Part shown: piece by piece, positions 5,623 through 34,463 of the stretch
Layout of the letters: each line of letters opens with the position of its first letter
Numbering within the stretch: the stretch's first letter is position 1
Source: an uncultured Veillonellaceae bacterium
GTDB taxonomy: Bacteria > Bacillota > Negativicutes > Selenomonadales > Selenomonadaceae
Length of the DNA stretch: 37,653 bases
Assembly: GCA_900315575.1 (NCBI GenBank)
Contig: OMZR01000026.1
Location: 1-37,653, forward strand
Reading direction: 5' to 3'
The notes under the pieces: generated by a model
Told to the model about the DNA's origin: nothing
Database searches by the model: none
What the model saw: the letters and a program-made list of their open reading frames with translations, nothing else
Position numbers and translations under genes: made by a program

Positions 5623-5685
5623 TTGTCAACATCCAATTTTGATATAGATTCGGGGATGTTTCATCGTGTTCCCATACGCTATGAT
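5623..5685 (+). promoter_or_regulatory. Candidate promoter region of the clostripain-like gene
   Basis: Two weak possibilities are visible. TTGTCA (5623-5628) is 16 bp from TAGATT (5645-5650). A good -10, TATGAT, lies at 5680-5685 but without a clear -35. The region is AT-rich compared with its surroundings and follows a terminator, so a promoter is expected here. Confidence 0.35.
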
Positions 5686-8755: not shown

Positions 8756-8842
8756 CATTTCGTGATGCCGGAATGCATTTCGTGCCAAAAAAGTGCATTT
8801 CGTGCCACATTTCGTCCAGAGCGGGGCGAAATTTGCTATGAT
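8756..8842 (+). promoter_or_regulatory. Direct-repeat box promoter A (LytTR-type architecture)
   Basis: Copies of CATTTCGTG start at 8756, 8776 and 8796, exactly 20 bp apart; the last two have the full TGCATTTCGTGCCA. An extended -10, TGCTATGAT, places its hexamer at 8837-8842, 41 bp after the last core start. No -35 hexamer is visible. A partial fourth copy, CATTTCGTC, lies at 8808. This is the only one of the five sites with three in-phase copies. It precedes the exported acidic protein gene. Confidence 0.8.
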
Positions 8843-12438: not shown

Positions 12439-12448
12439 AGCGCAAATG

Positions 12449-12515
12449 CATTTCGTGCCAAAAAAGTGCGTTTCGTGCCACATTCCGACTTTCGCCCGCA
12501 GAAATATGGTAAGGT
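12449..12515 (+). promoter_or_regulatory. Direct-repeat box promoter B
   Basis: TGCATTTCGTGCCA and TGCGTTTCGTGCCA have cores starting at 12449 and 12469, 20 bp apart. The extended -10 TGGTAAGGT has its hexamer at 12510-12515, 41 bp after the second core. An overlapping TATGGT at 12505 is an alternative -10. The site begins 10 bp after the nucleotidase stop and precedes the 12584-14912 operon. Confidence 0.78.
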
Positions 12516-12869: not shown

Positions 12870-13946
12870 ATGAAGCCATGGCGTGTGTGGAAACATACCA
12901 ACCATACCTGGAAGAAACCAGTGGCGGCGGCGCTGGCTGCGACGGTGCTGCTCTCGGGCGCACCGTGCGGCATGCAGCGCGCCGAAGCCGGATGGGACGG
13001 ATGGGATGATGTCATCGAAGCTGTCGGCGGCACGCTGATCGCCTTGCTCCAGCGAACACAGCTGCTGGACCTTGGTGACAATCCCGCCGTGCAGGCCGAG
13101 CTCTGCAGCCAGGCAGAAAAGGAAAATGACGGCCGTCCGGATCGGAGGGCCGTCATTTTGACGGACAGCGTCATGACGCGCCTCATCGAGCAGGCGTACG
13201 CAGACGATGCGCGGACAGGCGCACGGGAGACATTCCTGACAGACGAGCGCGAGCACGAGGCGGACGTCGAGAAAGAACGCGCGAAGCAGGCCGCGGCGGC
13301 TGAGGCATCGCCGAAAAAGGCGGCGAACGGCGACATGTATCTCGAACTCGGCCTTACCAATTTCGCCGAAAAAGAATACGCGCGCGCCAAAGCGCTCGAC
13401 GAAGAGAATCCGGACGCGGCCTGCGGCCTTGCCATGGTCGAAGGGCGGCGCGGCCATCATGAGCAGGCGCTCGCGATGGTGGACGAGGTGCTCGCGAAAC
13501 ATGCTGGAAACGCGCATGCCCTCGTCGCCCGCGCAAAAGCCCTCGAAGCCTACCGCGCCTACCACGAAGCCGCCCCGGAAGCCTGCGACATCCCTGCAGA
13601 TTACATGACGATGCTGGTCGATGGCATCACACACAGGATGGTGAAGGAAGATGAAAAAACTCGATTTCTGGCTTCGCGCCGGCGCACTTGGTACAGTGCT
13701 GGCATTTGCCGTGCCGCAGGTGCTGCCCGCGCCGCGTATGATGTCCGCACCCGTCGCTCGGGCGGCGACGGACTGGGACGCGATGGACGAGGACGAGCTC
13801 GCAGAACATCTCGGCGAGATGTCCGCCGAGGCCGTCATTGCTGTCATGCGGGACGAAGACCTCGACGATCCCGACATTCAGTCCGATGTCGAGGGCGAGA
13901 TCTGGGAGCGCGCGGAAAAAGCTGGCTGCGACCATCTGCTCGATGA
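12870..13946 (+). CDS. Exported TPR-containing protein whose frame overruns the next gene
   Basis: The frame encodes 358 residues. Residues 1-40 look like a signal peptide (WKKPVAAALAATVLLSGAP, ending near AEA-GW). Residues 145-235 contain two to three TPR-like helical pairs (MYLELGLTNFAEKEYARAKA, EQALAMVDEVLAKH). From about residue 260 the frame overlaps the CAP gene by 296 nt and reads as Arg-rich shadow sequence, so the natural C-terminus is probably near 13650 and the original stop has been lost; in the next frame a TGA at 13642-13644 sits just before the CAP start. A perfect hairpin lies inside the gene at 13123-13159. The N-terminal part vaguely recalls M48-type exported peptidases without any HEXXH, so it may be a remnant. 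Function unknown. Confidence 0.6.
   Translation: MKPWRVWKHTNHTWKKPVAAALAATVLLSGAPCGMQRAEAGWDGWDDVIEAVGGTLIALLQRTQLLDLGDNPAVQAELCSQAEKENDGRPDRRAVILTDSVMTRLIEQAYADDARTGARETFLTDEREHEADVEKERAKQAAAAEASPKKAANGDMYLELGLTNFAEKEYARAKALDEENPDAACGLAMVEGRRGHHEQALAMVDEVLAKHAGNAHALVARAKALEAYRAYHEAAPEACDIPADYMTMLVDGITHRMVKEDEKTRFLASRRRTWYSAGICRAAGAARAAYDVRTRRSGGDGLGRDGRGRARRTSRRDVRRGRHCCHAGRRPRRSRHSVRCRGRDLGARGKSWLRPSAR
13123..13159. other. Perfect 12-bp hairpin inside the TPR gene
   Basis: AAAATGACGGCC and GGCCGTCATTTT flank a 13-nt loop. The shape is that of a bidirectional terminator, with A-run before and T-run after, yet it lies within an open frame. It may mark an old gene boundary fused into this frame or cause partial termination. 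Confidence 0.6.
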
Positions 13947-14523
13947 CGAGACCGTCGAACAGCTCGCAAAGCAAGCCATTGAGGTTGCTTGGGAAGAATT
14001 CCCATCCGGCTCGCTCGACGATGAGGATGACGACGATACGACGTGTGAAGACGGCTCGTGCGATGACGAGGATGACGATGAAGACTACGACGATGACGAC
14101 GAAGACTACGATGAAGACGATGATGATGACGAGGACGATGGCAGCTACGCCGAATACGCCGAAGACGTCCTTGCCGCCGTCAACCGGAACCGTACCGCGT
14201 ACGGCCTCAGCCCGCTGACGCTCTCTGAAGATCTTTGCGAAGACGCGGACATCCGCGCTGAGGAAATCGTCTCGAACTTCTCCCATACGCGCCCCAATGG
14301 CTCGTCGTGCTTCACCGTCATCAGCGGCAGCTACCACCGCGTTGCGGAAAACATCGCGGGCGGCCATGCGACGGCGGAAGAGACCGTCGATCAGTGGATG
14401 AACTCGCCGCCCCACCGCGCGAACATCCTCGACCCCGCGCTCAAAGAACTCGGCGTCGGCTACTGCCACGCACCAGGAAGCGCATATGAGCACTACTGGG
14501 TGCAGCTCTTCCGCACGCGCTGA
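13651..14523 (+). CDS. Exported CAP/SCP-domain protein with acidic linker
   Basis: The protein has 290 residues. A signal peptide (KKLDFWLRAGALGTVLAFAVP..., cleavage near ARA-ATD) is followed by a helical acidic domain to residue 125 and an Asp/Glu/Tyr linker at about 125-165. The C-terminal CAP domain (about 168-290) shows VNRNRTAYGLSPLTLSEDL, FSHTRPNG, AENIAGGHATAEETVDQW, MNSPPHRANIL and the closing HYWVQLF, all family landmarks. Bacterial CAP proteins are extracellular and bind lipids, wall material or host ligands; activity varies. GGAAG lies 4 nt before ATG 13651. The acidic linker echoes the tails of the genes at 7772 and 8905, suggesting a common property needed at this cell surface. 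Confidence 0.88.
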   Translation: MKKLDFWLRAGALGTVLAFAVPQVLPAPRMMSAPVARAATDWDAMDEDELAEHLGEMSAEAVIAVMRDEDLDDPDIQSDVEGEIWERAEKAGCDHLLDDETVEQLAKQAIEVAWEEFPSGSLDDEDDDDTTCEDGSCDDEDDDEDYDDDDEDYDEDDDDDEDDGSYAEYAEDVLAAVNRNRTAYGLSPLTLSEDLCEDADIRAEEIVSNFSHTRPNGSSCFTVISGSYHRVAENIAGGHATAEETVDQWMNSPPHRANILDPALKELGVGYCHAPGSAYEHYWVQLFRTR

Positions 14524-14540
14524 CGGGAAAGGAGACGATC

Positions 14541-14912
14541 ATGAATGACATTTCCTGGCCCCGCCGCCTCGCCGCTGCCATCACCCATGCGAGCTGGATC
14601 GTCGGCGGCCTCGGCGCGGTCTGGCTGCCTCTGCTCTTCTGGTTGCTGTTCCGAAAGGACGATTTCGTGCGGCCGCATGCAAAGCAGGCGCTCTCGTGGC
14701 AGGTGCTGTCCCCCATCTTTGTCGGCGCGGTCGGTGTTGGCGTCGTGCTCGCCGGTCTTGCCGACCAAGACATGCAGACGGCCGCCATCATCCTCTGCGC
14801 CGCCATCGTGCCGACCGCGATCTTTCCGTTCATCGGCACGGTGAAAGCGCTCGCAAAGGAGCCCTACGGGTATCCGCTCTTGAAGATTTTTGTAGAATCT
14901 GGAAAAGAATGA
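14541..14912 (+). CDS. DUF4870-like small membrane protein
   Basis: The 123-residue product has three hydrophobic segments: an N-terminal THASWIVGGLGAVWLPLLFWLL, then a polar KDDFVRPHAKQALSW loop and two further segments. The arrangement, with a conserved HAKQALSWQ-like stretch after the first membrane segment, matches DUF4870 (Tic20-related fold), whose function is not established. AAAGGAG lies 7 nt before the ATG. It is the last gene of the operon from box promoter B and is followed by a strong terminator. Confidence 0.75.
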   Translation: MNDISWPRRLAAAITHASWIVGGLGAVWLPLLFWLLFRKDDFVRPHAKQALSWQVLSPIFVGAVGVGVVLAGLADQDMQTAAIILCAAIVPTAIFPFIGTVKALAKEPYGYPLLKIFVESGKE

Positions 14913-14930
14913 ACGTATTTTGATCACAGG

Positions 14931-14964
14931 AGCCGTTGCAAAGTGCAGCGGCTTCTGTTTTTTT
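14931..14964 (+). terminator. Rho-independent terminator
   Basis: AGCCGTTGCA pairs with TGCAGCGGCT (one G-T pair) around a 3-nt loop, followed by TCTG and seven T. It closes the 12584-14912 operon. Confidence 0.88.
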
Positions 14965-15007: not shown

Positions 15008-15036
15008 TTGACAAGGTTTTTTATAAAATTTATAAA
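15008..15036 (+). promoter_or_regulatory. Near-consensus sigma-70 promoter of the LytTR operon
   Basis: TTGACA (15008-15013), a 17-bp spacer and TATAAA (15031-15036). It has no copy of the direct-repeat box, so the regulator genes look constitutively transcribed. The leader to ATG 15106 is about 60 nt and AT-rich. Confidence 0.88.
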
Positions 15037-15105
15037 ACTACATGTGTTATCGTAAGAAATAAGAAAAATTTTGAACAAAACTTTGAATAAAAGGAGGGGA
15101 ACGGC

Positions 15106-15816
15106 ATGGGAAATGAACTGCTGATCTACATCTGCGACGATGAAGCCGACTCCGTCGAGGCCATCGAGACGCTCATCCACCAGGAACGCACAATCCGCGT
15201 CCGCACGGAAGCTTTCTCGTCTGGCGAGGAATTGCTGCCCGCGCTGAAGACGCGCCTGCCAGACCTCTTGATTCTCGATATTTTCATGGAGGGCATGGAC
15301 GGTATCACCGTCTTGCGGCAGATCCGCAGCATTGCGCGCGACCTGCCCGTCGCACTTTACAGCACGAGCACGGACTTCGCGCTCGAAGGCTACCGCCTGA
15401 AGGCCGTGCGCTATCTCGAAAAGCCCGTGAAGCAGGCCGACGTCCGCGAACTGCTGCGCTTCTTGCGAAAGACGCAGAGCGGCCGGCCGCTCTTCTACCT
15501 CGGGCAGAACGAATCCGTCCCGCTTGCAGACATCCTGTACTTCGAGCAGCAGAAGCACAAGATCGTGCTCCATCTCACGACGGGCGAGGAGCGGACGTAC
15601 TACGGCAAGCTCGACCAGCTCGAGTCGCTGAGCCCCGCGTTCGTCCGCAGCCACAAGAGTTATCTCGTGAACCTCGACCATGTCGTCGCCATCGATCGCG
15701 AGCTTTCGGTCTTCCGCATGCGCAATGGCTCGATGGCCTACATCCGCAAAGGCGAGCTGCCGGCCATGAAGCGGCGCTATGAAGAGAGGCTTATCGAGCG
15801 CGTGAGGTCCGAATGA
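15106..15816 (+). CDS. LytTR-type response regulator 1
   Basis: The protein has 236 residues. Residues 1-120 are a receiver domain with acidic CDDE near the N-terminus, phosphoacceptor Asp58 in LLILDIFMEGMDG and the conserved Lys in YLEKPVK. Residues about 130-236 are a LytTR DNA-binding domain (ILYFEQQKHKIVLHL, FVRSHKSYLVNLDHV). LytTR proteins bind two direct repeats spaced by about two helical turns and activate promoters lacking a -35, which is the design of the five box promoters in this window. AAAGGAGGGG precedes the ATG. The stop overlaps the kinase start (ATGA), so both are translated together. Confidence 0.93.
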   Translation: MGNELLIYICDDEADSVEAIETLIHQERTIRVRTEAFSSGEELLPALKTRLPDLLILDIFMEGMDGITVLRQIRSIARDLPVALYSTSTDFALEGYRLKAVRYLEKPVKQADVRELLRFLRKTQSGRPLFYLGQNESVPLADILYFEQQKHKIVLHLTTGEERTYYGKLDQLESLSPAFVRSHKSYLVNLDHVVAIDRELSVFRMRNGSMAYIRKGELPAMKRRYEERLIERVRSE

Positions 15817-17666
15817 TGGCGCGGCTGAAACGGTGGACGACGGGGCATGTCATCGCGGCGGCCGCCGTGCTCCTCATCGTGCTCGCCTTTGCACTTTCGC
15901 TGCCGTACCACCTCCGCGCGCTGCCGGGCGGCGCGCTGCCCGTGCAGCATGCCGAACAGGTGACGGCCACGGTGAATGGCGAGCGGCAGCAGCTGACGCT
16001 TCCCTATACGTTCCGCAACCTGCCGCCCGAGACACCGGTTGCCATCACGTTTCCTGTCGAATCGCGCGTCCCGTTCTCCGTGCTCGTGAAGACGGTCTAC
16101 GCGCCGGATGAAGTCGCGTTCAATGGCGAGACGGTCAGCACGTATGGCGCGGAGGGGACATACCCTTCCTTCTTTGACGACCCGCCGACGACCGTGCGCG
16201 TCTACAATTTCCGCCCCGATACCGATGGGGATGGGAAAAATACGATTACGGTCACGTACCATTTCCCGCATGACCGCGCGCAGCTGCCGGTCACGCCCTT
16301 TGTCATCGGCAACACGTCGGGCATCTTCCGCTATGAGTACATGGGACTCCTGGCCTGCTTCTTCCTCGAAGCCTTCCTGGCAATCACGGGGATTGTGCTC
16401 ATCCTGCTGTCGCTCTCCGTCTATCGTCTCGAAAAAGGGCGCAGGATGCTGCTGCAGCTCGGCCTGTTCTTTCTCGCCGTCGGCGTCTGGAACATCGGCG
16501 AAAATGATTTTTCCGTCTTCGTCATCCGGAACCCCGTGCTGCTGTACATGATGGCGTTCACAGGCCTGTTCTTCGTCATCGCGCCGCTCTACGGCTTCGC
16601 GCTGAATGCCGTGCCGTTCCGCTGGCGGCGTTTGCTGACCGCCGTGTTCTACGCGTCGGCCGCACTGCCGGCTCTCGCGCTGCTGCTGCAGCTCGCGGGG
16701 CTCGTCATGATGATGCAGAGCCTGTTCTTCTTCCACGTCTTTCATCCGGCGGCGCTGCTGCTGCTGACGGCGGCGCTCATCCATGAGGCCGTCCGCGAGG
16801 AAAACCGCCGGGCGCGGTGGATGCTTGTGCCCGTCGCCGTGCTGCTCGTGTCGGCCGTCGTGGAAGTGCTGAACTACTATGCGTTCCACAGCTTCGAGTT
16901 CTCGCTGATCTTCCTGTTCGGCTCATTCGTCTTCCTGCTGCTGATGCTCGTGCTGGCCGGCGTCTTTTTGCACAAGGATGCGCAGATGCGGCAGGCGTAC
17001 GAGCGGCAGCAGCACGAAAGCGAGCTCATGGCCGTCCGCCTGTCGGCGGAAAAAAAGCGCCACGACATGATGATGCGGGAAGAGCGGCGGCTCGCGAAGC
17101 TCCGGCACGACCTGAAGCACCATGTCGCGCTCTTGACGTCGTTCATCGCGGACGGCGACCCCGGACGCGCGCAGGACTATCTCGCGGAGCTCTCGGAGAA
17201 CATCCGCCGCAAGACGTCTGCGCCCTGCTGCGAGAACGTCGCCGTCAGCGCCGTCATCGAGCACTATGCAGCGCTGGCGCGCCAGGACGGTATCGGCGTC
17301 GTCATCGACACGGACGTCCCCGAAAAGATCGGCGGCCTTTCCGACACGGAGCTCGCCTCCGTGTTCGGCAACCTGCTCGAGAACGCGCTCAAAGCCTGCC
17401 GCCGGGGGAATGGAGAGAAGGCATCGTTCATCCAGCTGAAAGCGCGCATCCTCGACCAGCGGCTCGTGATCCTGATGGAAAATTCCCTGTTCGAGCAGTC
17501 GAGGCCGAACGGCGAGTTTTACCATTCGTCGAAGCGCGGCGGCCAGCACGGCATCGGCCTGCGCTCCATCGCCGACATCGCTGAGGCGCATGGCGGCACG
17601 GCGCGCTTCGAAGCGGACGGGGACGCGTTCCGCTCGTCGGTGATTCTGGAGCTTTCGGCGCAGTGA
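15813..17666 (+). CDS. Sensor histidine kinase with extracellular domain and 7TM-type region
   Basis: The protein has 617 residues. One membrane segment (about residues 12-30) is followed by an extracellular beta-rich domain (to about 175), a block of seven hydrophobic segments (about 180-390), a coiled linker and a kinase core. The arrangement matches 7TMR-DISM sensors. The H-box is LRHDLKHHVALL with His432, close to the AgrC-like HPK10 form that pairs with LytTR regulators. The ATPase has an N-box NLLENALKAC and a G-box HGIGLRSI. It lies between two LytTR regulator genes and overlaps the first by 4 nt, so it probably phosphorylates one or both. The ligand is unknown. Confidence 0.92.
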   Translation: MMARLKRWTTGHVIAAAAVLLIVLAFALSLPYHLRALPGGALPVQHAEQVTATVNGERQQLTLPYTFRNLPPETPVAITFPVESRVPFSVLVKTVYAPDEVAFNGETVSTYGAEGTYPSFFDDPPTTVRVYNFRPDTDGDGKNTITVTYHFPHDRAQLPVTPFVIGNTSGIFRYEYMGLLACFFLEAFLAITGIVLILLSLSVYRLEKGRRMLLQLGLFFLAVGVWNIGENDFSVFVIRNPVLLYMMAFTGLFFVIAPLYGFALNAVPFRWRRLLTAVFYASAALPALALLLQLAGLVMMMQSLFFFHVFHPAALLLLTAALIHEAVREENRRARWMLVPVAVLLVSAVVEVLNYYAFHSFEFSLIFLFGSFVFLLLMLVLAGVFLHKDAQMRQAYERQQHESELMAVRLSAEKKRHDMMMREERRLAKLRHDLKHHVALLTSFIADGDPGRAQDYLAELSENIRRKTSAPCCENVAVSAVIEHYAALARQDGIGVVIDTDVPEKIGGLSDTELASVFGNLLENALKACRRGNGEKASFIQLKARILDQRLVILMENSLFEQSRPNGEFYHSSKRGGQHGIGLRSIADIAEAHGGTARFEADGDAFRSSVILELSAQ

Positions 17667-17698
17667 GCCGGCGAAAAAAGGGAAGGGAGGGGAAGACG

Positions 17699-18433
17699 AT
17701 GGAAGACATGCGGATCATGATTCTCGACGACGATCTCGAGGCCCGCACACGCCTCGAACGGCTCGTCGAGTATTGGATGACGAAAGAGCATCAGGAAATC
17801 TTCCGTGTGCGCACGTATGGCGACGCGGCCTCGTTCCTCGAAGCGTTCCGCGCGCGTCCGGCCGAGATCGTCTTTCTCGACATCCTGCTCGAAAAAGATG
17901 TCAACGGCATTGGCGTTGCGGCTGAGGTGCGCGAGCTCGCGCCGGAGTGTGTCATCTTCTTCACGACGGGCACGCCGGAATATGCCGTCGATGGATTTGC
18001 CGTCCATGCGCTGCACTACTGCGTGAAGCCGATCCGCCCCATCGACATCGCCGAGTGCATGCGGCGCGCACAGGAAAAGCTCCACTGGGCTGAGAGAAGC
18101 ATCGACCTGCGCATCTCGGCGCAGACGATCCCCGTCCCGCTCCGCGACATCACGTATGTCGAGAGCGAACTGCACGACCTGATCGTCCACCGCGCAAATG
18201 GAAAGGCGCCGCTGCGCACGCGCATGACGATGACGGAGGCGGAAGCCATCTTCACCGATCGGTGCTTCCTGCGCATCGGGCGCAGCTTCCTCGTCAACAT
18301 GGACGCCATCCGGGAAGCGCGCGGGGATGTCTTCGTCCTCACGAACGGCACGGAGCTCCCCCTGCGCCGTCAGGGCCGCGCCGAGCTGCGCCGGATCTAT
18401 GAAACGTACCGGTACCAGAAGATGCGGGAATGA
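17699..18433 (+). CDS. LytTR-type response regulator 2
   Basis: The protein has 244 residues. The receiver has ILDDD near the N-terminus, phosphoacceptor Asp61 in IVFLDILLEKD and Lys in HYCVKPI; the LytTR domain covers about 145-244 (ITYVESELHDLIVHR, RCFLRIGRSFLVNMD). It differs clearly in sequence from regulator 1, so this is not a recent duplication. ATG 17699 follows GGGAGGGG at about 7 nt; an upstream GTG at 17663 overlaps the kinase stop but has no ribosome site. One kinase flanked by two LytTR regulators allows either divided output or mixed dimers on the paired boxes. Box promoter C begins 44 bp after its stop. Confidence 0.93.
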   Translation: MEDMRIMILDDDLEARTRLERLVEYWMTKEHQEIFRVRTYGDAASFLEAFRARPAEIVFLDILLEKDVNGIGVAAEVRELAPECVIFFTTGTPEYAVDGFAVHALHYCVKPIRPIDIAECMRRAQEKLHWAERSIDLRISAQTIPVPLRDITYVESELHDLIVHRANGKAPLRTRMTMTEAEAIFTDRCFLRIGRSFLVNMDAIREARGDVFVLTNGTELPLRRQGRAELRRIYETYRYQKMRE

Positions 18434-18438
18434 AGTTA

Positions 18439-18465
18439 GGCCCCCTCGATGAGGGGGCTGGTTTG
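18439..18465 (+). terminator. Probable terminator after the LytTR operon
   Basis: GCCCCCTC (18440-18447) pairs perfectly with GAGGGGGC (18451-18458) around GAT, then TGGTTTG. The T-run is weak, so some read-through into the HD-GYP operon is possible. Confidence 0.6.
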
Positions 18466-18476
18466 TACACGAAATG

Positions 18477-18543
18477 CATTTCGTGCCAAAAACATGCATT
18501 TCGTGCCAGGTTCGGCCATCGGCCCGATATTTTCTGCTACAGT
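18477..18543 (+). promoter_or_regulatory. Direct-repeat box promoter C
   Basis: Two identical TGCATTTCGTGCCA copies have cores starting at 18477 and 18497 (20 bp). The extended -10 TGCTACAGT has its hexamer at 18538-18543, 41 bp after the second core. It drives the HD-GYP/receiver/BMP/hybrid-kinase operon; the leader to ATG 18569 is under 25 nt. Confidence 0.8.
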
Positions 18544-19687: not shown

Positions 19688-20065
19688 ATGACGGAGCAGA
19701 AAACGGTGCTCATCATTGATGATGACGAAATGAACCGCATGGTTGCGAAAATGGTGCTCGAAAAAAGCGTCGGCTGCCGCGTGATTGCAGCACCGGGAGG
19801 CTTTGACGGCATTACGATGATGAGCATGGAGCCCGTCGACCTCGTGCTGCTCGACCTTGAAATGCCGGAGCTCGACGGCTTCCAGACGCTTGACATCGTG
19901 CAGAAGCGGCCGGATCTCGCAGCCATCCCGGTCATCCTGCTCACGGCCTCGTCAGACCGTGATACCGTCGTGCGTGGGAGCACGTACGGCATCCGCGACT
20001 ACATCAAGAAGCCGTTCCTGCCGGACGACCTCGCGCGGCGCGTGAAGAAGCTGCTGCTGAATTGA
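19688..20065 (+). CDS. Single-domain receiver protein (CheY-like)
   Basis: The 125-residue protein is only a receiver: LIIDDDEMNR, phosphoacceptor Asp in LVLLDLEMPELDG, TAS and KKPF with the conserved Lys. It has no output domain, so it probably acts as a phosphate shuttle, sink or protein-binding switch. The EMNR after the acidic pair is the same as in the receiver of the hybrid kinase three genes downstream, which suggests shared partners, such as the kinase's HPt domain. GAAAGGAG lies 9 nt before the ATG. It is flanked by dispersed GC hairpins. Confidence 0.92.
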   Translation: MTEQKTVLIIDDDEMNRMVAKMVLEKSVGCRVIAAPGGFDGITMMSMEPVDLVLLDLEMPELDGFQTLDIVQKRPDLAAIPVILLTASSDRDTVVRGSTYGIRDYIKKPFLPDDLARRVKKLLLN

Positions 20066-20069
20066 AAGC

Positions 20070-20086
20070 CTCCCTCTGAGAGGGAG
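20070..20086. repeat. Short GC hairpin, MITE-end relic
   Basis: CTCCCTC/GAGGGAG around TGA is followed by CCAGAAGCGTGAGG, resembling the outer part of the MITE ends at 24942 and 26525. It is probably a solo end or relic. Confidence 0.6.
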
Positions 20087-20116
20087 CCAGAAGCGTGAGG
20101 AAAGGAGGCGGCCTCT

Positions 20117-21199
20117 ATGCGCATGCTCGCTGGAATCGGCACCATCTTTTTCATCGTGTTCCTCATCATCGCCGGGCTCACGTCTTCGCCGCATGCCGCA
20201 ACGCGCCCGCCGGCCTACCGTGTCGGCGTGCTCCTGATCGGCGATGCCGCGATGAGCAGCTGGAACGCCGCGCACATGCAGGGCCTTTCGAAAGTGGCGG
20301 ACGAGCTCGGCCTCACTCTGCAGTACAAGGAGAACGTGGCACCGGAATCCTGCCGTGAAGCCACGGACATGCTGATTGCGGACGGCTGCAACATCATCGT
20401 CAGCACGTCTATTTCTTTCGAAGAGGGTATCGTGCAGGCAGCCGAGGCGCATCATGACGTCATGTTCCTTCAGGCGACGGGCACGAAGGTGCGGCCGAAC
20501 CTCGTGCCGTACATGGGGCGCATGTACCAGGCGCGCTACCTCGCCGGGCTCGTCGCGGGCCGCACAACGAAGACGGGCGTCATCGGCTACATCGCGTCGA
20601 CACAGATTCCCGAAGTCGTGCGCGGCATCGATGCATTCACGCTCGGCGTGCGCCGTGTCAATCCAGAGGCGCGCGTCTATGTCCATTACATCGGTTCGTG
20701 GTCGGAGGACGGCGAGGCGCAGCAGGCGACGGAGCAGCTGCTCAGCGAGGTCCCTGCCATCGACATCCTCGCGATGCACGCCGACACGTATGGGCCGCTC
20801 GCCGTCGCGCGCGCGCATGGTATCCATGTCATCGGCTGCAACATCGCAGCCCCCGCATATCAGGACATCCTGCTCACGGCGCCGATCTGGCACTGGGAGG
20901 CAATCTATGGGAAATACTTGCGCGAGGCCATGAAGGGCCGCCTTTCCGGCCGCAGCTATCTCGCGGGCATCGAGACGGGCATCGTCGGCCTCGCGCCGCT
21001 CTCTTCGGACGTGACGCCCGAGACTTCGCGTGCCGTGCGCCAGATGACGAAGCTCCTCGAAGACGGCGAGATGGATGTATTCTATGGCCCGATTCGCGAT
21101 ACCAGCGGGAAGCTCCGCGTCGCCGAAGGCGACAATCTTTCGGATACCGAGCTCTTTGACCAGCTCGACTGGTACGTCGAGGGGGTGGAGCTGCGATGA
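20117..21199 (+). CDS. BMP/Med-family binding protein 1, membrane-anchored
   Basis: The 360-residue protein starts with an uncleaved-looking hydrophobic segment (GIGTIFFIVFLIIAGLT) and no lipobox Cys. The rest follows the BMP/Med periplasmic-binding fold: RVGVLLIGDAAMSSWNAAHMQGL at the N-lobe, ISFEEG, YLAGLVAG, TGVIGYIAS, GIDAFTLGVRRVNP and HADT. BMP proteins usually deliver nucleosides or lipids to ABC importers, but no permease or ATPase gene is nearby. Instead a close relative and a hybrid sensor kinase follow with 4-nt overlaps, so it probably serves as a ligand receptor for the kinase. AAAGGAGG lies 8 nt before ATG 20117. Confidence 0.88.
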   Translation: MRMLAGIGTIFFIVFLIIAGLTSSPHAATRPPAYRVGVLLIGDAAMSSWNAAHMQGLSKVADELGLTLQYKENVAPESCREATDMLIADGCNIIVSTSISFEEGIVQAAEAHHDVMFLQATGTKVRPNLVPYMGRMYQARYLAGLVAGRTTKTGVIGYIASTQIPEVVRGIDAFTLGVRRVNPEARVYVHYIGSWSEDGEAQQATEQLLSEVPAIDILAMHADTYGPLAVARAHGIHVIGCNIAAPAYQDILLTAPIWHWEAIYGKYLREAMKGRLSGRSYLAGIETGIVGLAPLSSDVTPETSRAVRQMTKLLEDGEMDVFYGPIRDTSGKLRVAEGDNLSDTELFDQLDWYVEGVELR

Positions 21200-22323
21200 A
21201 GCCGATGTGGGAAAATCAGATGTGGGAAAACCATACGCTCTTTTTCGTGTTCTGCGCCATCGCGCTCGCGCTCGTCATGGGTATCTCCGCGCTCATCGTC
21301 TCTATCCGGCGGCAGGAAGACGTCATCGCCGTGCGGCAGAAGCCGCGCATCGGCCTCATGCTCTATGGCGGGCAGGACGAGGCCGGCTGGAACCGGCAGC
21401 ATGCGGCAGGCGTCCTCCAGGCGGCGCGCCGCGTCGGCGTTGATGTCGATATCATCGATCATGTGACGTTCGATCAGGCGCGTGCCGATGAGGCGCTTTC
21501 GCGCCTGGCTGCGGAAGATGGCGGCCATGACTTCACCATCGCCACGAGTGCCGATTTCGCTGAGGCGGCCCAGATGCTGCACGACGGAGGCAGCTACATG
21601 GACGTCGCCCTGCCGAGGCTCGATGGGCAAGGCAAGAACTGCGTGCCCTATTTCGTGCGCCTGTACCAGGCCGAATACCTCGCGGGCATCCTCGCAGGCA
21701 TGGAGACGCAGACGGGGCGGATCGGCTACGTCGCCTCGACGCGCAATCCCGAAGTCTGCCGCTCTGTCAATGCCTTTCTGCTCGGTGCGCAGGAGACGCG
21801 GCCGGACGTCCGCGTGCTCGTCAAGTTCGCCGGCGGCTGGAGTGCGCCAGATGACGAGCAGCAGGCCGCTGCAGAGCTCGTCGCAGAGGGGTGCGACATT
21901 TTGAACAGCCATCAGGACACGATGAACGTGCAGGCGTATGCCGCCGCGCATGGCGTGATGTTCCTGGACTACCTCGAGCCGTATGCGACCTCGTCCGGCC
22001 TCGGCCTCGCAACTGTCGAATGTCGCTGGGACATGGTCTATGAAGCGATGCTCCGCGACTACCTGCGCGGACGGTTCCGCAGCATGTACTGGATTGGCAT
22101 CGAGGACAATGCCGTCGGGCTCGGCGGCTTTTCCCTGCGTGTCAGCGAGGAAGCGCGGGCCCGCGTGATGGTCGAGGAACAGCGCATCCGCGAGAATGGC
22201 AGCGTGTTCACCGGCCCAATCTATGATACGGACGGCGTGCTGCGCGTCGCAGACGGCGAGATGCTCTCCGACGCTGCGCTCATCCATCTCGACTGGTATG
22301 CGGAAGGAGTGGAGTTCCCATGA
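21196..22323 (+). CDS. BMP/Med-family binding protein 2, membrane-anchored
   Basis: The 375-residue paralogue of the preceding protein has an N-terminal membrane segment (LFFVFCAIALALVMGISALIV) after a short cytoplasmic stretch containing a duplicated MWEN. BMP-fold landmarks are IGLMLYGGQDEAGWNRQHAAG, YLAGILAG, GRIGYVAST, VNAFLLGAQETRP and HQDT. The two proteins share the closing LDWYVEGVE/LDWYAEGVE element but are otherwise diverged, so they may bind different ligands or form a heterodimer. Start and stop overlap neighbours (ATGA at both ends), showing tight translational coupling with the kinase. No ABC transporter partner is present. Confidence 0.88.
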   Translation: MKPMWENQMWENHTLFFVFCAIALALVMGISALIVSIRRQEDVIAVRQKPRIGLMLYGGQDEAGWNRQHAAGVLQAARRVGVDVDIIDHVTFDQARADEALSRLAAEDGGHDFTIATSADFAEAAQMLHDGGSYMDVALPRLDGQGKNCVPYFVRLYQAEYLAGILAGMETQTGRIGYVASTRNPEVCRSVNAFLLGAQETRPDVRVLVKFAGGWSAPDDEQQAAAELVAEGCDILNSHQDTMNVQAYAAAHGVMFLDYLEPYATSSGLGLATVECRWDMVYEAMLRDYLRGRFRSMYWIGIEDNAVGLGGFSLRVSEEARARVMVEEQRIRENGSVFTGPIYDTDGVLRVADGEMLSDAALIHLDWYAEGVEFP

Positions 22324-24926
22324 AGGCAGAAAAAGTCCTCCAGAGGCTCGAAAGCCGCAAGACCGCGCTGCTGCTGTTCCCCGTGCTGTTCCTCGTGCTG
22401 CTCATCGTCGTCGGCGTGCTCCTGCAGCAGCGCATCCGCACGATGTTCCACACGTACGTCGAACAGGAAGTCGCCATGAACGTCGACATGCTCGCGAACC
22501 GTCTCGACGCGCGCTTCGGTGCCGAGCTCATGGGCATGGAGAACCTCATCCGCGTCAAGGGCACGGACTCGTGGGAGAGCCTGCTGTCGGACAATGATGT
22601 CGACGGCATGGGCATCAAGCGCATGGGCGTGCTCGCGCACCGCGGCCGCGCCATCGTCGGCGACTCGCTGAAAGTCAGCGAGTGGGACGGCATCCGCCAG
22701 TCGTTCCAGGGGTATCCCGCCATCAGCTATGCAAGCGGCAAGGGGCTTCTCTTGACCGTGCCCGTGTTCTATGGCGAGAACATCCGCTACGTGTTGTACC
22801 GCCATTATACAGAGCGTGAGCTCGCGCGGGAATTCGACATCGACTGCTTTGACGGCGCGGGCCGCGTGATGCTCGTGCTCTCGGGCGGCTCCGTGCCGAT
22901 GAGCAGCCGCGAATGGTCAGAGGCCGACCGCAGCTACATTGACCGCATGGAGCTCGGCGGCATCCTGCGCCAGCTGCGCGCGCGCCTCTACAGCGCGCCG
23001 TCGGCCGCGCTCTACGATCAGGAGGAGAACGTCGTGTTTATGGCCGACCTCAAGCGCATGGACGGCCAGGTCATCGGCTTCGTGCCAGCGTCGGCGCTCG
23101 ACGGCGGCCTGCTCGCCGTCACGCGGCTCGTCATCTGGGTGTTCTCCATGCTCGTGCTGCTGTTCGCCATCAGCGCGGCCTATCTCTTCACGCGCGAGCG
23201 CCGCGTGATGGAGGCCGACCAGGCCAGCCAGGCAAAGAGCGCGTTCCTCGCGCACATGTCGCACGAGATCCGCACGCCGATCAACGCCATCCTCGGCATG
23301 AACGAGATGATCCTGCGCGAGAGCCGCGAAAAAGACACCCGTACCTACGCGCATCGTGCGCATGAAGCCGGGCAGACGCTGCTGAACCTCGTCAATGACA
23401 TCCTCGACCTCTCGAAAATCGAAGCGGGCAAGATGGAGCTCGCGCTGGCGGGATTCCGCCTCGCGGACGTGCTCGAGCGCGTCTGCACGCTCGTGCGCCT
23501 GCGCGCGGAAAAGAAAGGGCTCGATTTCCATGTCATGGTCGATCCGGAGCTGCCGGCCGCGCTCTACGGCGATGGCGCGCGCGTGCAGCAGATCATCGTG
23601 AACCTCCTGACGAATGCTGTGAAATACACGCGCAAGGGCAGTGTCTCGCTGACCGTCCTTCGCGCAGAGCCCGAGGAAGCACCGGAGGGCGTTATCGTGC
23701 CAGCAGGAGACGTCCTGCTCGTCGCCAGGGTCGAGGATACGGGCATCGGCATCAAACCAGAGGACAGGAAGCGGCTGTTCGGCGACTTCGTACGCTTCGA
23801 TGCGCAGCGCAACCGCAACATCGAGGGCACGGGCCTCGGCCTCGCGCTCACGCTCCGCTTCGCCCGCCGCATGGGCGGCACGATCACGGTCGAGAGCACC
23901 TATGGCGAAGGCTCGATCTTCACGGCGTGGATTCCGCTGCGCGTGCGGTCGAAAGAAACCATCGGCGACTTCGATGCGGAACGCGTGACCGAGAGCGAGA
24001 GCGTGCATACGGCCCCGTTCGTCGTGCCTGACGCGCACATCCTCGTCGTCGATGACAACGAGATGAACCGCTTCGTCGCGCAGAGCCTGCTTAAAGAGAC
24101 GAAGGCGCACGTCCGCCTCGCCGCCAGCGGCCGCGAATGTATCGGCCGCCTCCGCAGCGAGCATTACGACGTCGTGCTGCTCGACGACATGATGCCGGAG
24201 CTCAGCGGCACGGAGACGCTCGAACGCATCAAGAATCAACATCTCGCCGACGGCACGCCTATCGTCGCGCTGACGGCGAATGCCATCACCGGGGCACGCG
24301 AAGAGTACCTCGCCGCCGGCTTCGACGACTACCTCGCCAAGCCCATCGCGCCCGACGCCCTCATAAAACTGCTGCGTCGCACGATCCCCGAGACGCTGCA
24401 GAAAACGGAAGAAGCGCAGGAGTCGAAAGAAGCGCAGAAACCAGAAGGGACGCAGGAACCAGAAGGAGCGCAGGAACCAGAAGAGACGGCGGCGAATATC
24501 GAAAACGCGGGACAACCGGAAGAAGCAACGCCGAATGCCGAGGACGCGCCGCTGCTCGACACCGAGCTCGGCATGAGCTACGCCGGCGGCATCCTGGAAC
24601 TCTATCAGCCCATGCTCCAGATGTTCGCCGACCTCCAGCCCGAGAAAACAAAAGCCATCGCGGCCGCCTACGATACGGACGACTGGAAAACCTACGCCAT
24701 CGACGTCCACGCCCTGAAATCCAACGCCCTCTCCATCGGCGCCCGCAGCCTGTCAGAGCTCGCAAAGACGCTCGAACTCGCCGCCAAAGCCATCGGCAAG
24801 GAAGAAACGACAGACGAAGAAAAGCAGGAAGCCGAAGCCACCATCCGCGGGCATCATGAGGAACTGCTGGAAATGTATGAAGCCGTCGCTGAAGAAGCAA
24901 AAAAGTTACTTGCCAAAAATCCGTAA
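22320..24926 (+). CDS. Hybrid sensor kinase: sensor-HisKA-HATPase-REC-HPt
   Basis: The protein has 868 residues. Two membrane segments (about 18-36 and 263-290) enclose an extracellular sensor region. HisKA has His315 in AHMSHEIRTPINAILG; the ATPase has NLLTNAVKYT, DTGIGI and GTGLGLALT. The receiver has VVDDNEMNRF and Asp622 in VVLLDDMMPELSG. A Pro/Glu/Gln-rich linker with EAQEPE-like repeats (about 695-735) precedes an HPt domain with His797 in DVHALKSNALSIGA. All phosphorelay residues are present (His-Asp-His). Co-translation with two BMP proteins suggests they are its ligand receptors, as in LuxP/LuxQ and TorT/TorS. The HPt could pass phosphate to the HD-GYP protein or the lone receiver at the start of the operon. 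Confidence 0.93.
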   Translation: MKAEKVLQRLESRKTALLLFPVLFLVLLIVVGVLLQQRIRTMFHTYVEQEVAMNVDMLANRLDARFGAELMGMENLIRVKGTDSWESLLSDNDVDGMGIKRMGVLAHRGRAIVGDSLKVSEWDGIRQSFQGYPAISYASGKGLLLTVPVFYGENIRYVLYRHYTERELAREFDIDCFDGAGRVMLVLSGGSVPMSSREWSEADRSYIDRMELGGILRQLRARLYSAPSAALYDQEENVVFMADLKRMDGQVIGFVPASALDGGLLAVTRLVIWVFSMLVLLFAISAAYLFTRERRVMEADQASQAKSAFLAHMSHEIRTPINAILGMNEMILRESREKDTRTYAHRAHEAGQTLLNLVNDILDLSKIEAGKMELALAGFRLADVLERVCTLVRLRAEKKGLDFHVMVDPELPAALYGDGARVQQIIVNLLTNAVKYTRKGSVSLTVLRAEPEEAPEGVIVPAGDVLLVARVEDTGIGIKPEDRKRLFGDFVRFDAQRNRNIEGTGLGLALTLRFARRMGGTITVESTYGEGSIFTAWIPLRVRSKETIGDFDAERVTESESVHTAPFVVPDAHILVVDDNEMNRFVAQSLLKETKAHVRLAASGRECIGRLRSEHYDVVLLDDMMPELSGTETLERIKNQHLADGTPIVALTANAITGAREEYLAAGFDDYLAKPIAPDALIKLLRRTIPETLQKTEEAQESKEAQKPEGTQEPEGAQEPEETAANIENAGQPEEATPNAEDAPLLDTELGMSYAGGILELYQPMLQMFADLQPEKTKAIAAAYDTDDWKTYAIDVHALKSNALSIGARSLSELAKTLELAAKAIGKEETTDEEKQEAEATIRGHHEELLEMYEAVAEEAKKLLAKNP

Positions 24927-28181: not shown

Positions 28182-28193
28182 ATGCTTTTTATG

Positions 28194-28260
28194 CGTTTCG
28201 TGACAAGAAAATGCATTTCGTGCCACATTTCCCCAAAACGTCGTGCCAACATGGTAAGAT
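28194..28260 (+). promoter_or_regulatory. Direct-repeat box promoter D (pga operon)
   Basis: TGCGTTTCGTGACA and TGCATTTCGTGCCA have cores at 28194 and 28214 (20 bp). The extended -10 TGGTAAGAT has its hexamer at 28255-28260, 41 bp after the second core. An additional TCGTGCCA lies at 28241-28248. The leader to the pgaA-like ATG is about 70 nt. Confidence 0.78.
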
Positions 28261-28337
28261 GATTTTGAACAGAAACAATAGAACTTTTCACGGAAAGGAT
28301 CATGACAAGAAATGCAGGAAAGCGAGGGGAAGGATCG

Positions 28338-30233
28338 ATGAAATGGAAAGAGATGCAGGCCGGGCTCTTAGGGTGCGTCTGCGTTCTCGGAGCTTCTGCG
28401 GCGCCAGCGATGGCGGCGCAGCCGTATTGGACAGATTACGATGATGGCGTCGCCGCGCTTGAGCGGCACGACAATGTGACAGCAGAGGCTTGCTTCGAGC
28501 GGGCAGTCGCAGAAGTCCCCGAAGAAGATCGGCAGCGTTTCCGCTTTGACGTGGATGCGAAGCGGGCGGCGCTCTATATCAAGAACGGGGAACCCGACCG
28601 TGCGGAAAAGATTCTCGCGCCCTATGTGATGGCGGGAACGGACAACATGAAAGTCGTCAGCGACTATCTCATGGCGCTGCGCATGAATAACAAGCCGAAA
28701 GAGGCCATATCGTATTTTGAAACATATTGCACGGACTGGAGCCGGATGCCGGTCTACGGCCTTCAGAACATGGGCGACGTGTACCTGCGCCAGGGAGATT
28801 GGAAAAAGGCGCACAAGCTCTACACGTACACGCTGCCGCAGTCGGACAGCGACTTCGTCCGCATGGGCGACGCCTACGCACTCGCCAACCTCGGCCGGAA
28901 AGAGGAAGCAATCGGAGAGTACAAGACCGTCGTCAAGCGGAACCCCGTCCGTCAGACCATCGTGCCGATCGATGCGGCCGTCTTCCTCCAGCATGGCGAC
29001 GTGGCGTTCGCGCGGAAGATGTTTGCCATGCTCGGCCAGACGCCGGAGGAACGCGAGCATTACCAGCTGGCATATGCTCAGGCGCTGCTGGATGCGCAGC
29101 GTGACAAGATTGCAGACCCGAAGCAGCAGTTCCTGCGCGATGAGCGCCTGTCGGGCCGCGACTATCATCGCGAAATCGACAAGGTGCTCGCGCCGCTGCT
29201 CGAAAGCGGAGACGAAGACGTCCGCACGCAGGCGCTCGCGCTCAAAGCGCGCAACCAGCTGCAGCGCGGCGCGGTTCGTTCGGCGGAAAAGACGCTCGAC
29301 CTGTCGCTCGAACATAACACGCAGGCCCCGGCTGCCTTCCGCACCGGCTCGGATCTCTCAACGACGTTCCGTCACGAGCTGACGGTCACGGCGGGCGAAA
29401 ATGTCGATACCGACAGGAACCATTACCGCGATGTCGGCGTGGATTATCGGCAGTATCTCGGCAGCAATCTCTACGCCCTCGCGGGCACGGGCTGGTCGCG
29501 CACGGAAGACGGCGATGTGGCGGGCACGTACAACGAATCGTATGCGGGCTTCGACTGGCGCCAGCCCTGGGGCTTTTTCCAGCTGACATACGACCGTGCG
29601 ATGGGGGACATCGAGCGCGACGGCTATGACGCGCTGCTGCATTACGATCCGAACGACCTCACGAGCATCGAGCTCGCGGCCGGGCGTCATCCCTACGACG
29701 CGGCGCGGGCCGTCCGCGCTGGCATCTACCGTGATACCTATGCGCTCCGCTTTGATCATTTCCTGACGAACCGCTGGCGGCTCGGCCTCACGGGCGAGCG
29801 GGCGGACATCTCGGACGGGAATGACTGGTGGGCGTTCGGCATGGACACGTCGCTCGACATCGGCGGCCGCCACAACTACCGCGACCAGCTGCTGGCCTCG
29901 TACCGCTACAGCCATTACGACGAACCAGCTGACGAATACAATGCACCAAACCGCCGCGTCGAATACGCGTTCGGCACCAGCCGGAAGTGGACGGTGCCGC
30001 GCCTCCTGGCGTCGTGGGAGCTCACCCCGATGTTTGGATGGAATCAGGAGGACGGCGAAGGGACGGAATTCTCGCCGAGCCTCCGTCTCGCCTACCGCCG
30101 CGACTTCGCCCACTACCAGAGCCTGGCACTCGGCCTCCAGTATGACTGGCGGCAGCACCGGCCTGACCGTGCCGATGTCAATCACCGCAGGAGCGGCTGC
30201 AGCGCAGACATTTCGTATGAAGTAGGATGGTGA
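28338..30233 (+). CDS. pgaA: PgaA-like outer-membrane exporter of poly-N-acetylglucosamine
   Basis: The protein has 631 residues. A signal peptide (LLGCVCVLGASAAPAMA-A) is followed by TPR-like helical repeats to about residue 340 (DDGVAALERHDNVTAEACFERA, MGDVYLRQGDWKKAHKLY). From about 350 the sequence alternates in the manner of an outer-membrane beta-barrel and ends in an aromatic residue (SYEVGW). A periplasmic TPR domain plus barrel is the design of PgaA, which guides the deacetylated polymer through the outer membrane. It is shorter than the E. coli protein (about 800). The order of genes that follows (deacetylase, glycosyltransferase, small membrane protein) confirms the role. ATG 28338 follows GGGGAAGG; the frame extends to 28302. 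Confidence 0.85.
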   Translation: MKWKEMQAGLLGCVCVLGASAAPAMAAQPYWTDYDDGVAALERHDNVTAEACFERAVAEVPEEDRQRFRFDVDAKRAALYIKNGEPDRAEKILAPYVMAGTDNMKVVSDYLMALRMNNKPKEAISYFETYCTDWSRMPVYGLQNMGDVYLRQGDWKKAHKLYTYTLPQSDSDFVRMGDAYALANLGRKEEAIGEYKTVVKRNPVRQTIVPIDAAVFLQHGDVAFARKMFAMLGQTPEEREHYQLAYAQALLDAQRDKIADPKQQFLRDERLSGRDYHREIDKVLAPLLESGDEDVRTQALALKARNQLQRGAVRSAEKTLDLSLEHNTQAPAAFRTGSDLSTTFRHELTVTAGENVDTDRNHYRDVGVDYRQYLGSNLYALAGTGWSRTEDGDVAGTYNESYAGFDWRQPWGFFQLTYDRAMGDIERDGYDALLHYDPNDLTSIELAAGRHPYDAARAVRAGIYRDTYALRFDHFLTNRWRLGLTGERADISDGNDWWAFGMDTSLDIGGRHNYRDQLLASYRYSHYDEPADEYNAPNRRVEYAFGTSRKWTVPRLLASWELTPMFGWNQEDGEGTEFSPSLRLAYRRDFAHYQSLALGLQYDWRQHRPDRADVNHRRSGCSADISYEVGW

Positions 30234-30238
30234 ACCAG

Positions 30239-32041
30239 ATGAAAAAGACAAGGAAGCTCCTGGCGGCGTTCGTCGGCGCATGCTGTGCAATCGGTGCGTT
30301 CTGCATGTCCGGCGGGACGGCCGCCGCGCAGGTCTCGGTTTTCTGCTATCACGAAATCGAGAAGCCGAAAGACCCCTATGCCATCCCGCAAAGAGAGCTG
30401 GAGCAGCAGATCAAGGACTGGAAGGCGCAGGGCTACCGCTTCGTTTCGCTCGATGAATACGAAGCCTACATGAAAGGCGAGCTCACGCTCCCCGAAAAAA
30501 GCGTCATGCTGACATTTGACGACGGCTATGCGTCCGTCTACACGAAGGTTTATCCGCTGCTCCAGAAATATCAGGTCCCGGCGATGATTGCACTCGTTAC
30601 TTCGTGGACGGAGGGCGAGAGCAAGCCAAGCGACGTCGGCGACCTCCTGACATGGGAGCAGATTCGCGAGATGGAGGCGAGCGGCCTCGTGAGCGTCGTG
30701 TCGCATACGCATGCCATGCACAAGCAGCAGGCCATCGACCCGCAGGGGGACCGCAATGCCGTAGCGGGCAGTCATCTCTATTTCCAGAACCTCCCGCAGG
30801 CGGACGGCAGTGTCCAGAATCGCTACGAGACGGAAGAAGAATATCAGACCCGTCTCCAGCAGGATTTGAAGAAGGTCCAGTCGGTCTTTGAAGAGCGCCT
30901 TGGCCATCCCGCCCGCGCCATCGTATGGCCGTATGGCACATTTTCCGGCGAAGCGCAGCGAGCTGCGCAGGCAGCCGGTATGGAAGCCGCGTTCAATCTG
31001 AATGCGAGCGCGAACAACACGCCGGGTCAGACGACCCTCATGAATTCGAACCGTGCCCTGATTTCCAAAACGACGCAGAAAAAGGAAATCCAGCATGACC
31101 TTGCGGGCTATCGGGTGCCCATCCGCATGGCGCAGGTGGACATCGACGCCATCTATGACGAAGACCCCGCCGTGCTCCGCGAGAACATCCGCGGCGTCAT
31201 CGAACATCTCAACAACAACAAGATCAACCTCGTCGCGCTGCAGGCATTCGCCGACCCCGACGGCGATGGCAACGTGGACAAAGTCTATTTTGAGAATTCC
31301 GTCGTACCCGTCGAAGCAGACGTCTTCAACACCGTGGCGGACGCCATCGAGGCCGACGGCATCGACGTCGTGGCCTGGCTGCCGGGCCTGAGCTACACCG
31401 CGCTCGCAGCGGCGGACGGCAGCAACCTCGTACAGGCGGATGGCGAAGCGGGCTGGTATCATCGCCTGTCGCCGTTCGATGCGGCGAACGAAGCGAAGCT
31501 CGTGGCGCTCTACCGCGATCTCGGACGCTACACCGTGGCGCAGGGCGTTTTGTTCCAGGACGACCTCTACATGAACGATTTTGAAGACGTTTCGCCTGCG
31601 GCAAAGGGCGCGAATACGGCAGCGAAAACGAAGCGCCTGACCGACCTCTCGCTCGCGCTCGGCGCGGCATTCCGCGAAAGCCATCCCGATGGCCTGCTGC
31701 TGCGCGACATCTACGACGAAGTCGTGCTGAATCCGGCGTCGGAAGAATGGTTCGCGCAAAACTACAAAGACTGCCTGCAGCACTACGACTACGTCGTCGT
31801 CATGGCGTATCCGTACATGGATCACGAAAAGAAGCCGCTCGACTTCCTCGCTCGCGTCGCCAAGGCCGTCGAGAAAGCTGGCGGCACAGACAAGACCATC
31901 GTCAAGATCCAGTCGTACGACTGGGAGAAGGAACGCTGGTTCAGCAACAAGAATTTTTCTGCCCAGATGAAGACGCTGAAGCAGGCCGGCATCCGGAACC
32001 TGGGATACTATCCGAACACATTCTGCTACTGGGAGAGATGA
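30239..32041 (+). CDS. pgaB: PgaB-like poly-N-acetylglucosamine deacetylase/hydrolase
   Basis: The protein has 600 residues and an exported N-terminus (LLAAFVGACCAIGAFCMSGG). The polysaccharide-deacetylase domain (about 35-260) shows FCYHEI, the catalytic LTFDDGYASVYT and SVVSHTHAMH. The second domain (about 290-600) is the glycoside-hydrolase-like module of PgaB, with VDIDAIYDEDP, LFQDDLYMND and MAYPYMD. PgaB deacetylates part of the polymer in the periplasm, which export requires. No lipobox is clearly placed, although two Cys lie in the hydrophobic segment. The frame is open from ATG 30227, which abuts its ribosome site; ATG 30239 is preferred. It starts 5 nt after the pgaA stop. Confidence 0.9.
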   Translation: MKKTRKLLAAFVGACCAIGAFCMSGGTAAAQVSVFCYHEIEKPKDPYAIPQRELEQQIKDWKAQGYRFVSLDEYEAYMKGELTLPEKSVMLTFDDGYASVYTKVYPLLQKYQVPAMIALVTSWTEGESKPSDVGDLLTWEQIREMEASGLVSVVSHTHAMHKQQAIDPQGDRNAVAGSHLYFQNLPQADGSVQNRYETEEEYQTRLQQDLKKVQSVFEERLGHPARAIVWPYGTFSGEAQRAAQAAGMEAAFNLNASANNTPGQTTLMNSNRALISKTTQKKEIQHDLAGYRVPIRMAQVDIDAIYDEDPAVLRENIRGVIEHLNNNKINLVALQAFADPDGDGNVDKVYFENSVVPVEADVFNTVADAIEADGIDVVAWLPGLSYTALAAADGSNLVQADGEAGWYHRLSPFDAANEAKLVALYRDLGRYTVAQGVLFQDDLYMNDFEDVSPAAKGANTAAKTKRLTDLSLALGAAFRESHPDGLLLRDIYDEVVLNPASEEWFAQNYKDCLQHYDYVVVMAYPYMDHEKKPLDFLARVAKAVEKAGGTDKTIVKIQSYDWEKERWFSNKNFSAQMKTLKQAGIRNLGYYPNTFCYWER

Positions 32042-32076
32042 CACAGCTTTGAAATCTTACGAAAGGACTGTTTGAT

Positions 32077-33321: not shown

Positions 33322-33728
33322 TGAAACAGCAGAAACCAGTCATTGATTGCAGTGAAAAAAGAAACATTCTGATCCGTCGGGCGGAACAGCTCATTTCCAC
33401 CATCGCCACATTCGTCTTGTGGATTGTCGCGTTCTACGCCATCCGCCACATCCTCGTGCTCGGGAACTATCCGCAGGATTCGATGATGAAAGTCCTCGCC
33501 ATCCTGCTCCTCGCGACGCTCCTGCTCCTCTTCACGAGCGCATTCTGGCAAGTGTACAACATCTGCCTCTTCCGCGGCCGCGACCGTCGCAAAGCCGTCC
33601 CGATGCCATCGGAAGAACAGCTGGCCGCCACATTCTCCATGACGCTCCAGACCTACGAAGCCGTCCAGCACAGCGCATACGTCGAAGTCTCATCGCTCGA
33701 CGGCAGGGGATATTGCGTGATGAAATGA
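33318..33728 (+). CDS. pgaD: PgaD-like accessory membrane protein
   Basis: The 136-residue protein has two membrane segments (about 27-48 and 57-78), followed by a cytoplasmic tail with RGRDRRKAVPMPSEEQLAATF. Size, topology, position after pgaC and 4-nt overlap identify it as PgaD-like; sequence alone is less specific. In E. coli PgaC and PgaD together bind c-di-GMP and are unstable without it. The arginines in the FRGRDRR loop are plausible for such contact, but this is inference. It is the last gene of the operon; no terminator is seen before the toxin-antitoxin promoter, 42 bp downstream. Confidence 0.8.
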   Translation: MMKQQKPVIDCSEKRNILIRRAEQLISTIATFVLWIVAFYAIRHILVLGNYPQDSMMKVLAILLLATLLLLFTSAFWQVYNICLFRGRDRRKAVPMPSEEQLAATFSMTLQTYEAVQHSAYVEVSSLDGRGYCVMK

Positions 33729-34388: not shown

Positions 34389-34396
34389 ATTTTCTG

Positions 34397-34463
34397 CATT
34401 TCGTGCCAAAAAAGTGCATTTCGTGCCACATTCCCCCATCTGCGAGGGATTTTGTGGTATGGT
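34397..34463 (+). promoter_or_regulatory. Direct-repeat box promoter E (adhesin)
   Basis: Two identical TGCATTTCGTGCCA copies have cores at 34397 and 34417 (20 bp). The extended -10 TGGTATGGT has its hexamer at 34458-34463, 41 bp after the second core. Confidence 0.8.

Follow-up and report, generated by a model that had tools for sequence, protein, structure and literature searches.

The 37,653-nucleotide (nt) contig OMZR01000026.1 of an uncultured Veillonellaceae bacterium (the window, meaning this whole stretch) harbors a real, somewhat unusual regulatory operon, in which a sensor kinase gene lies between the genes of two LytTR response regulators, RR1 and RR2. The window also carries five copies of a direct repeat, here termed the box, upstream of other genes. 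The operon runs head to tail on the forward strand at 15106-18433, and Pfam domains confirm the LytTR-kinase-LytTR order given in a first-pass annotation: RR1 (15106..15816), a receiver-LytTR protein whose gene accompanies the kinase gene in relatives; the kinase (15813..17666); and RR2 (17663..18433), a second receiver-LytTR protein, the orthologues of which are distributed like the multi-copy box. RR1 starts at the ATG at 15106 and overlaps the kinase gene by 4 nt (ATGA). For RR2, inspection by eye makes the ATG at 17699, preceded by GGGAGGGG, a likelier start than the GTG at 17663 in the list of open reading frames. RR1 and RR2 are the only LytTR genes of the source genome (G000, 3.16 Mb).

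A putative near-consensus promoter (15008..15036, forward strand), recognized by eye, is composed of TTGACA (15008-15013), a 17-nt spacer and TATAAA (15031-15036), with an upstream block CAAAATTGGGGC (from 14996) that is conserved in relatives. The promoter scan of the window did not list it, because the scan requires a T as the final base of the -10 element. There is no box at this promoter, and the nearest upstream half-site-like match is one copy with two mismatches at 14662. The preceding TPR-CAP-DUF4870 operon ends with a terminator hairpin (14926..14958, forward strand) of 15 pairs plus a T run (-25.3 kcal/mol, z -6.5), whereas the hairpin at the 3′ side of RR2 (18439..18459, forward strand) has a poor T run. 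The gene layout and these signals indicate that RR1, the kinase and RR2 form one operon, in agreement with the earlier proposal of a single transcript from a boxless promoter. The ratio of nonsynonymous to synonymous substitution rates (dN/dS) is low to moderate in all three genes (0.04-0.40) and is not discriminating.

Both regulators possess receiver and LytTR domains above the Pfam cut-offs. RR1 (236 residues) scores 70.9 bits against the receiver model PF00072 and 56.6 bits against the LytTR model PF04397, and RR2 (256 residues) scores 40.3 and 52.5 bits, respectively. The acidic pair, the phosphorylatable Asp already noticed in the first-pass annotation and the Lys of the receiver are kept in both, with the Asp at position 58 in RR1 and 61 in RR2 (numbered from the ATG at 17699), and both regulators could be phosphorylated. 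RR1 and RR2 are 27-28% identical to each other and fall into different clades of a LytTR tree with long branches. Their DNA-contact motifs are FVRSHKS in RR1 versus FLRIGRS in RR2, the latter also differing from the contact motif FhRhHRS of the LytTR fold of Staphylococcus aureus AgrA (PMC4227749). For all three proteins of the operon, every NCBIfam model listed stays below its cut-off. In addition, RR1 is closer to an orthologue from another genus (in genome G126, 69-70% identity) than to one from its own genus (in G174, 65-66%), a hint of gene transfer across genus boundaries.

The kinase (617 residues) has an N-terminal transmembrane (TM) segment, an extracytoplasmic region at about residues 39-175, about seven TM segments at residues 176-392, an H-box with H432 within RHDLKHH, and a GHKL ATPase domain (PF14501, 51.8 bits). 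The 7TMR-DISM kinases are defined by an extracytoplasmic β domain followed by seven TM helices. Two lines of evidence agree with this layout, and with the earlier designation as a 7TM kinase: hydropathy reveals one N-terminal and about seven more hydrophobic segments, the latter at residues 176-392, and a low-confidence AlphaFold2 model (pLDDT 50.5) has seven long helices over the same residues after a mostly β region. The Pfam 7TMR-DISM domains stay below cut-off in this protein, with 7TMR-DISM_7TM at 9.8 bits (E 0.96) against a cut-off of 29. A search of solved structures gave no match to the kinase, whose model is unfit for a fold search as it is too uncertain.

The box consists of TGCATTTCGTGCCA twice in direct orientation with six bases in between, giving a period of 20 bp, or about two helical turns. 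Such pairs lie upstream of candidate target promoters and are linked to RR2 by co-occurrence. When up to one change is allowed over the 18 searched bases, the source genome contains seven copies, five in the window and two at contig ends. With up to two mismatches the window has six matches, compared to none in 100 shuffles, far beyond chance. We collected 26 sites from six genomes, namely the five with multiple copies (G000, G174, G175, G176 and G180) and G125. Left out were the overlapping third half-sites (G000 8758, G175 C204:860 and G176 C100:6518), the chance-like matches with two mismatches in G175 C315 and G176 C22, the site G180 C34:20126 with three mismatches, and matches in genomes beyond these six. 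The sites are not independent, as many of the promoters are orthologous. In all 26, an extended -10 element (TGnTAnnnT) lies exactly 30 nt past the right GTGCC; the first -10 finder had given 30 nt in 19 and 20, 25 or 35 nt in the other 7. A TTGACA-like hexamer at the usual spacing is not conserved among the 26 promoters.

Compared to known LytTR sites, the half-site TGCATTTCGTGCCA agrees in 8/10 bases with GGCATTTCAT, which is described as the unit of the direct repeat bound by E. coli YpdB (PMC4847170). A single variant box in G125, a genome of another genus (C94, L068 7344), has TTTCATGCC twice and the same 30-nt extended -10 geometry, and its right half matches GGCATTTCAT in 9/10 bases (PMC4847170); the sole LytTR match of this genome is 28% identical to RR2. 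Moreover, a third, weaker half-site is present 20 bp upstream of the box that precedes the gene at 8860 (8758-8807 in the window), and it is kept in G175 (L056 840-888) and G176 (L058 6498-6546).

The distribution of the box was examined in a family survey of 189 genomes; the order-wide search covers the same 189 and thus adds only an altered pattern and threshold. Orthologues of RR2 (at least 62% identity) are found in G000, G174, G175, G176 and G180, the next best-scoring match being 32% identical, and three or more full-form boxes occur in these five genomes only (Fisher p 5e-10, a statistic that ignores relatedness). In a class-wide search, 8 of 380 genomes had a match: the five, G125 with its single variant site, and G111 and G315 with chance-like single matches. 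Within the genus of the source genome, boxes are found in 4/4 genomes with RR2 and in 0/3 without any LytTR gene (G171-G173), two of which have a boxless HD-GYP homologue of 52-53% identity.

By contrast, RR1 follows the box less closely. Orthologues are present in G000, G174, G175, G176 and G126, and fragments of the gene remain in G182 and G183; no box was detected in G126, G182 or G183. In G126 both RR1 and the kinase are intact. This distribution argues against RR1 acting at the box. In G182 and G183 (genus g27), which lack RR2 and the box, the RR1-kinase matches are broken or partial, as if the pair were decaying.

The first-pass annotation had suggested that the two regulators might oppose each other. 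A precedent is found in Lactobacillus plantarum C11, in which the kinase PlnB is co-expressed with two LytTR regulators, PlnC and PlnD, which are reported to act oppositely on common repeats (PMC2714321). However, PlnC and PlnD are described there as 59% identical, compared to 27-28% for RR1 and RR2, and an intact RR1-kinase pair exists without any box in G126, so that opposition of RR1 and RR2 homodimers at one box finds no support here and is quite unlikely.

The same annotation had also suggested that RR1 and RR2 form heterodimers with one regulator on each half-site, noting that the half-sites of the boxes it labelled B and D differ by one or two bases. The difference itself stands in the window (one base at 12450 and two at 28195), but at the counterparts of the 12450 site in G175 and G176 the left and right halves are the same. 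Over 14 bases, the two halves are identical in 16/26 sites, differ at one base in 7/26 and at two in 3/26, and thus none of the 26 pairs differs at more than two bases. Although the two genes share an operon in the source genome, encode full receivers and LytTR domains, and co-occur in all four genomes with intact RR2 (RR1 of G176 being cut by a contig end), the near-identical halves do not fit two distant regulators with differing contact motifs, the box tracks RR2 more closely than RR1, and in G174 the regulators belong to separate transcription units on opposite strands. We therefore rejected the heterodimer on half-site identity and genome distribution, and consider it very improbable.

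The gene orders of the relatives suggest how the operon arose. RR1 and the kinase adjoin a divergent clostripain-like gene in G126, G174, G182 and G183. In G174, the order box-TPR-CAP-DUF4870-RR2-box-HD-GYP has no RR1-kinase within, and the pair lies about 14 kb from RR2 on the opposite strand. By comparison, the pair is located between DUF4870 and RR2 in G000 and G175, and a contig of G176 starts inside RR1 and continues with the kinase and RR2. Among the sister genomes, G174 thus retains the separate arrangement and G126 has RR1-kinase but no RR2, and by parsimony the placement of the kinase between two regulators is derived. In G174, the sequence that separates DUF4870 from RR2 is no more structured than its shuffles (z 0.04), and RR2 there is therefore probably transcribed from the box-led row that begins before TPR. 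In this clade, RR1-kinase appears to have been relocated to the position upstream of RR2.

The promoter of RR1 left a further trace. Promoters of RR1 share with the clostripain gene a conserved block, CAAAATTGGGGnTTGACA, of which further copies are found elsewhere in G182 and G183. In the window, a copy lies upstream of the clostripain-like gene on the reverse strand (5624..5641); the block is also there in G175, and G176 has a one-mismatch match near its clostripain gene. This copy probably marks the place that RR1-kinase once occupied, or it could be an operator retained by the clostripain gene. No paired repeat was seen at the CAAAATTGGGGnTTGACA block as a candidate site of RR1. In G182 (L064 15560-15630) the block is also found away from RR1, as the palindrome CACCCAATTTTGTACAAAATTGGGTG.

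The separate state in G174 bears as well on whether this kinase serves RR2 at all. Adjacency might reflect shared transcription only, with the phosphate for RR2 coming, for instance, from the hybrid kinase at 22320-24926 (HisKA, HATPase, receiver and Hpt domains), which in G000, G174 and G176 is encoded within the HD-GYP block that follows RR2. However, the kinase gene is present in all four genomes with intact RR2 (with a split frame in G176), G180 lacks both an intact RR2 and the kinase, and matches to the hybrid kinase are also found in G182 and G183, neither of which has RR2. Another phosphate donor is therefore an unlikely explanation.

Altogether, we favor, with a probability of about 0.62, the interpretation that two separable units have been joined, in which RR2 homodimers activate a surface and biofilm regulon through the box and RR1 acts elsewhere. 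RR1 and the kinase would be an ancestral two-component pair, RR1 being the original partner, and RR2 would belong with the repeated box. The kinase is proposed to sense an extracytoplasmic cue and to phosphorylate RR1 and, since the joining, RR2 too. A phosphorylated RR2 homodimer may then occupy the box at about -75 to -43, with one subunit on each half-site about two helical turns apart, and activate extended -10 promoters that lack the usual -35 element. The predicted regulon comprises pgaABCD-like genes for poly-N-acetylglucosamine (PNAG), the HD-GYP regulator, secreted TPR/CAP proteins and surface repeat proteins. RR1 may act at its own promoter or at that of clostripain. We suggest that RR1-kinase, together with its promoter, was inserted downstream of DUF4870 and upstream of RR2, a step that would have disconnected RR2 from the row of genes behind a box that is found ahead of it in G174. 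The fuller scenario, in which this move before an unrelated RR2, once transcribed from the box row, created a branched pathway of one kinase and two regulators with RR2 alone running the regulon, is held only tentatively, at somewhat short of even odds.

Several points weigh against this interpretation. The co-occurrence of RR2 and the box comes from five related genomes of two genera, and completeness is 90-100% for the genomes in question. RR1 correlates with the box too, albeit less well (p 3e-6), and its presence in all four genomes with an intact RR2 is compatible with a dependence on RR1. RR2 is found without RR1 only in G180, where an in-frame stop interrupts it, and thus the survey provides no case of an intact RR2 operating in the absence of RR1. 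In G176, the frame of the kinase gene is split. Finally, the period of the box is 20, compared to 21 implied by the PlnC/PlnD repeats (9 bp with a 12-bp spacer; PMC2714321).

The operon resembles PlnBCD in having a kinase and two LytTR regulators together, and paired direct repeats upstream of the regulon promoters (PMC2714321). It differs in that RR1 and RR2 belong to separate clades, without the high homology of PlnC and PlnD (59%; PMC2714321), in that the box follows one regulator more closely, and in that the operon looks recently joined. YpdA/YpdB is described as a LytS/LytTR-type pair with one regulator (PMC5552118), whereas the present kinase was compared by Pfam and NCBIfam only. No peptide-pheromone gene is named beside the operon, although small ones were not searched for, and an open-access literature search found no paper pairing "Selenomonas" with "LytTR". 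The interest of the system lies in how two separable modules came together and in the rigid, RR2-linked surface and biofilm regulon. If the interpretation is true, close relatives preserve the states before and after a two-component network gained a branch, and therefore the order of events (adjacency, shared transcription, phosphotransfer specificity) is testable. For a rumen Selenomonas-like group, RR2 would also become a candidate for the master regulator that controls the genes for PNAG and surface proteins. The named relatives are uncultured Veillonellaceae RUG371 and RUG043 and Selenomonas sp. RUG12578, the RUG names of which we take to denote rumen genomes.

All five boxes of the window are on the forward strand. 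They precede a predicted secreted protein gene at 8860 (box at 8774..8807, with the third half-site at 8758), the TPR-CAP-DUF4870 operon at 12870-14912 (12447..12480, with one change in the right half), the HD-GYP response regulator gene at about 18569 (18475..18508, with the extended -10 element 30 nt downstream), the pgaABCD-like operon at 28302-33728 (28192..28225, with two changes in the left half), and a repeat-rich surface protein gene at 34539 (34395..34428). In the pgaABCD-like operon, the PgaB-like polysaccharide deacetylase/GHL13 protein and the PgaC-like glycosyltransferase give strong matches, whereas those to PgaA and PgaD are weak (E about 2e-4, below the Pfam cut-offs).

In the surface repeat-protein gene, a poly-G tract at about 34871 lies between an N-terminal signal-bearing frame and a long downstream frame, and the same arrangement is found in box-led surface repeat-protein genes of G175 C74 (L054), G176 C182 (L060) and G180 C34 (L062). 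The tracts are 7, 9, 9 and 7 long in the window, G175, G176 and G180, respectively, and a length of 8 would fuse the frames. The pattern resembles phase variation by slipped-strand mispairing, with all four genes in the OFF state in these assemblies. Behind the HD-GYP gene, the genes at 19688-24926 encode a single receiver, two Bmp-type binding proteins and the hybrid kinase with Hpt, which possibly constitute a second signalling chain.

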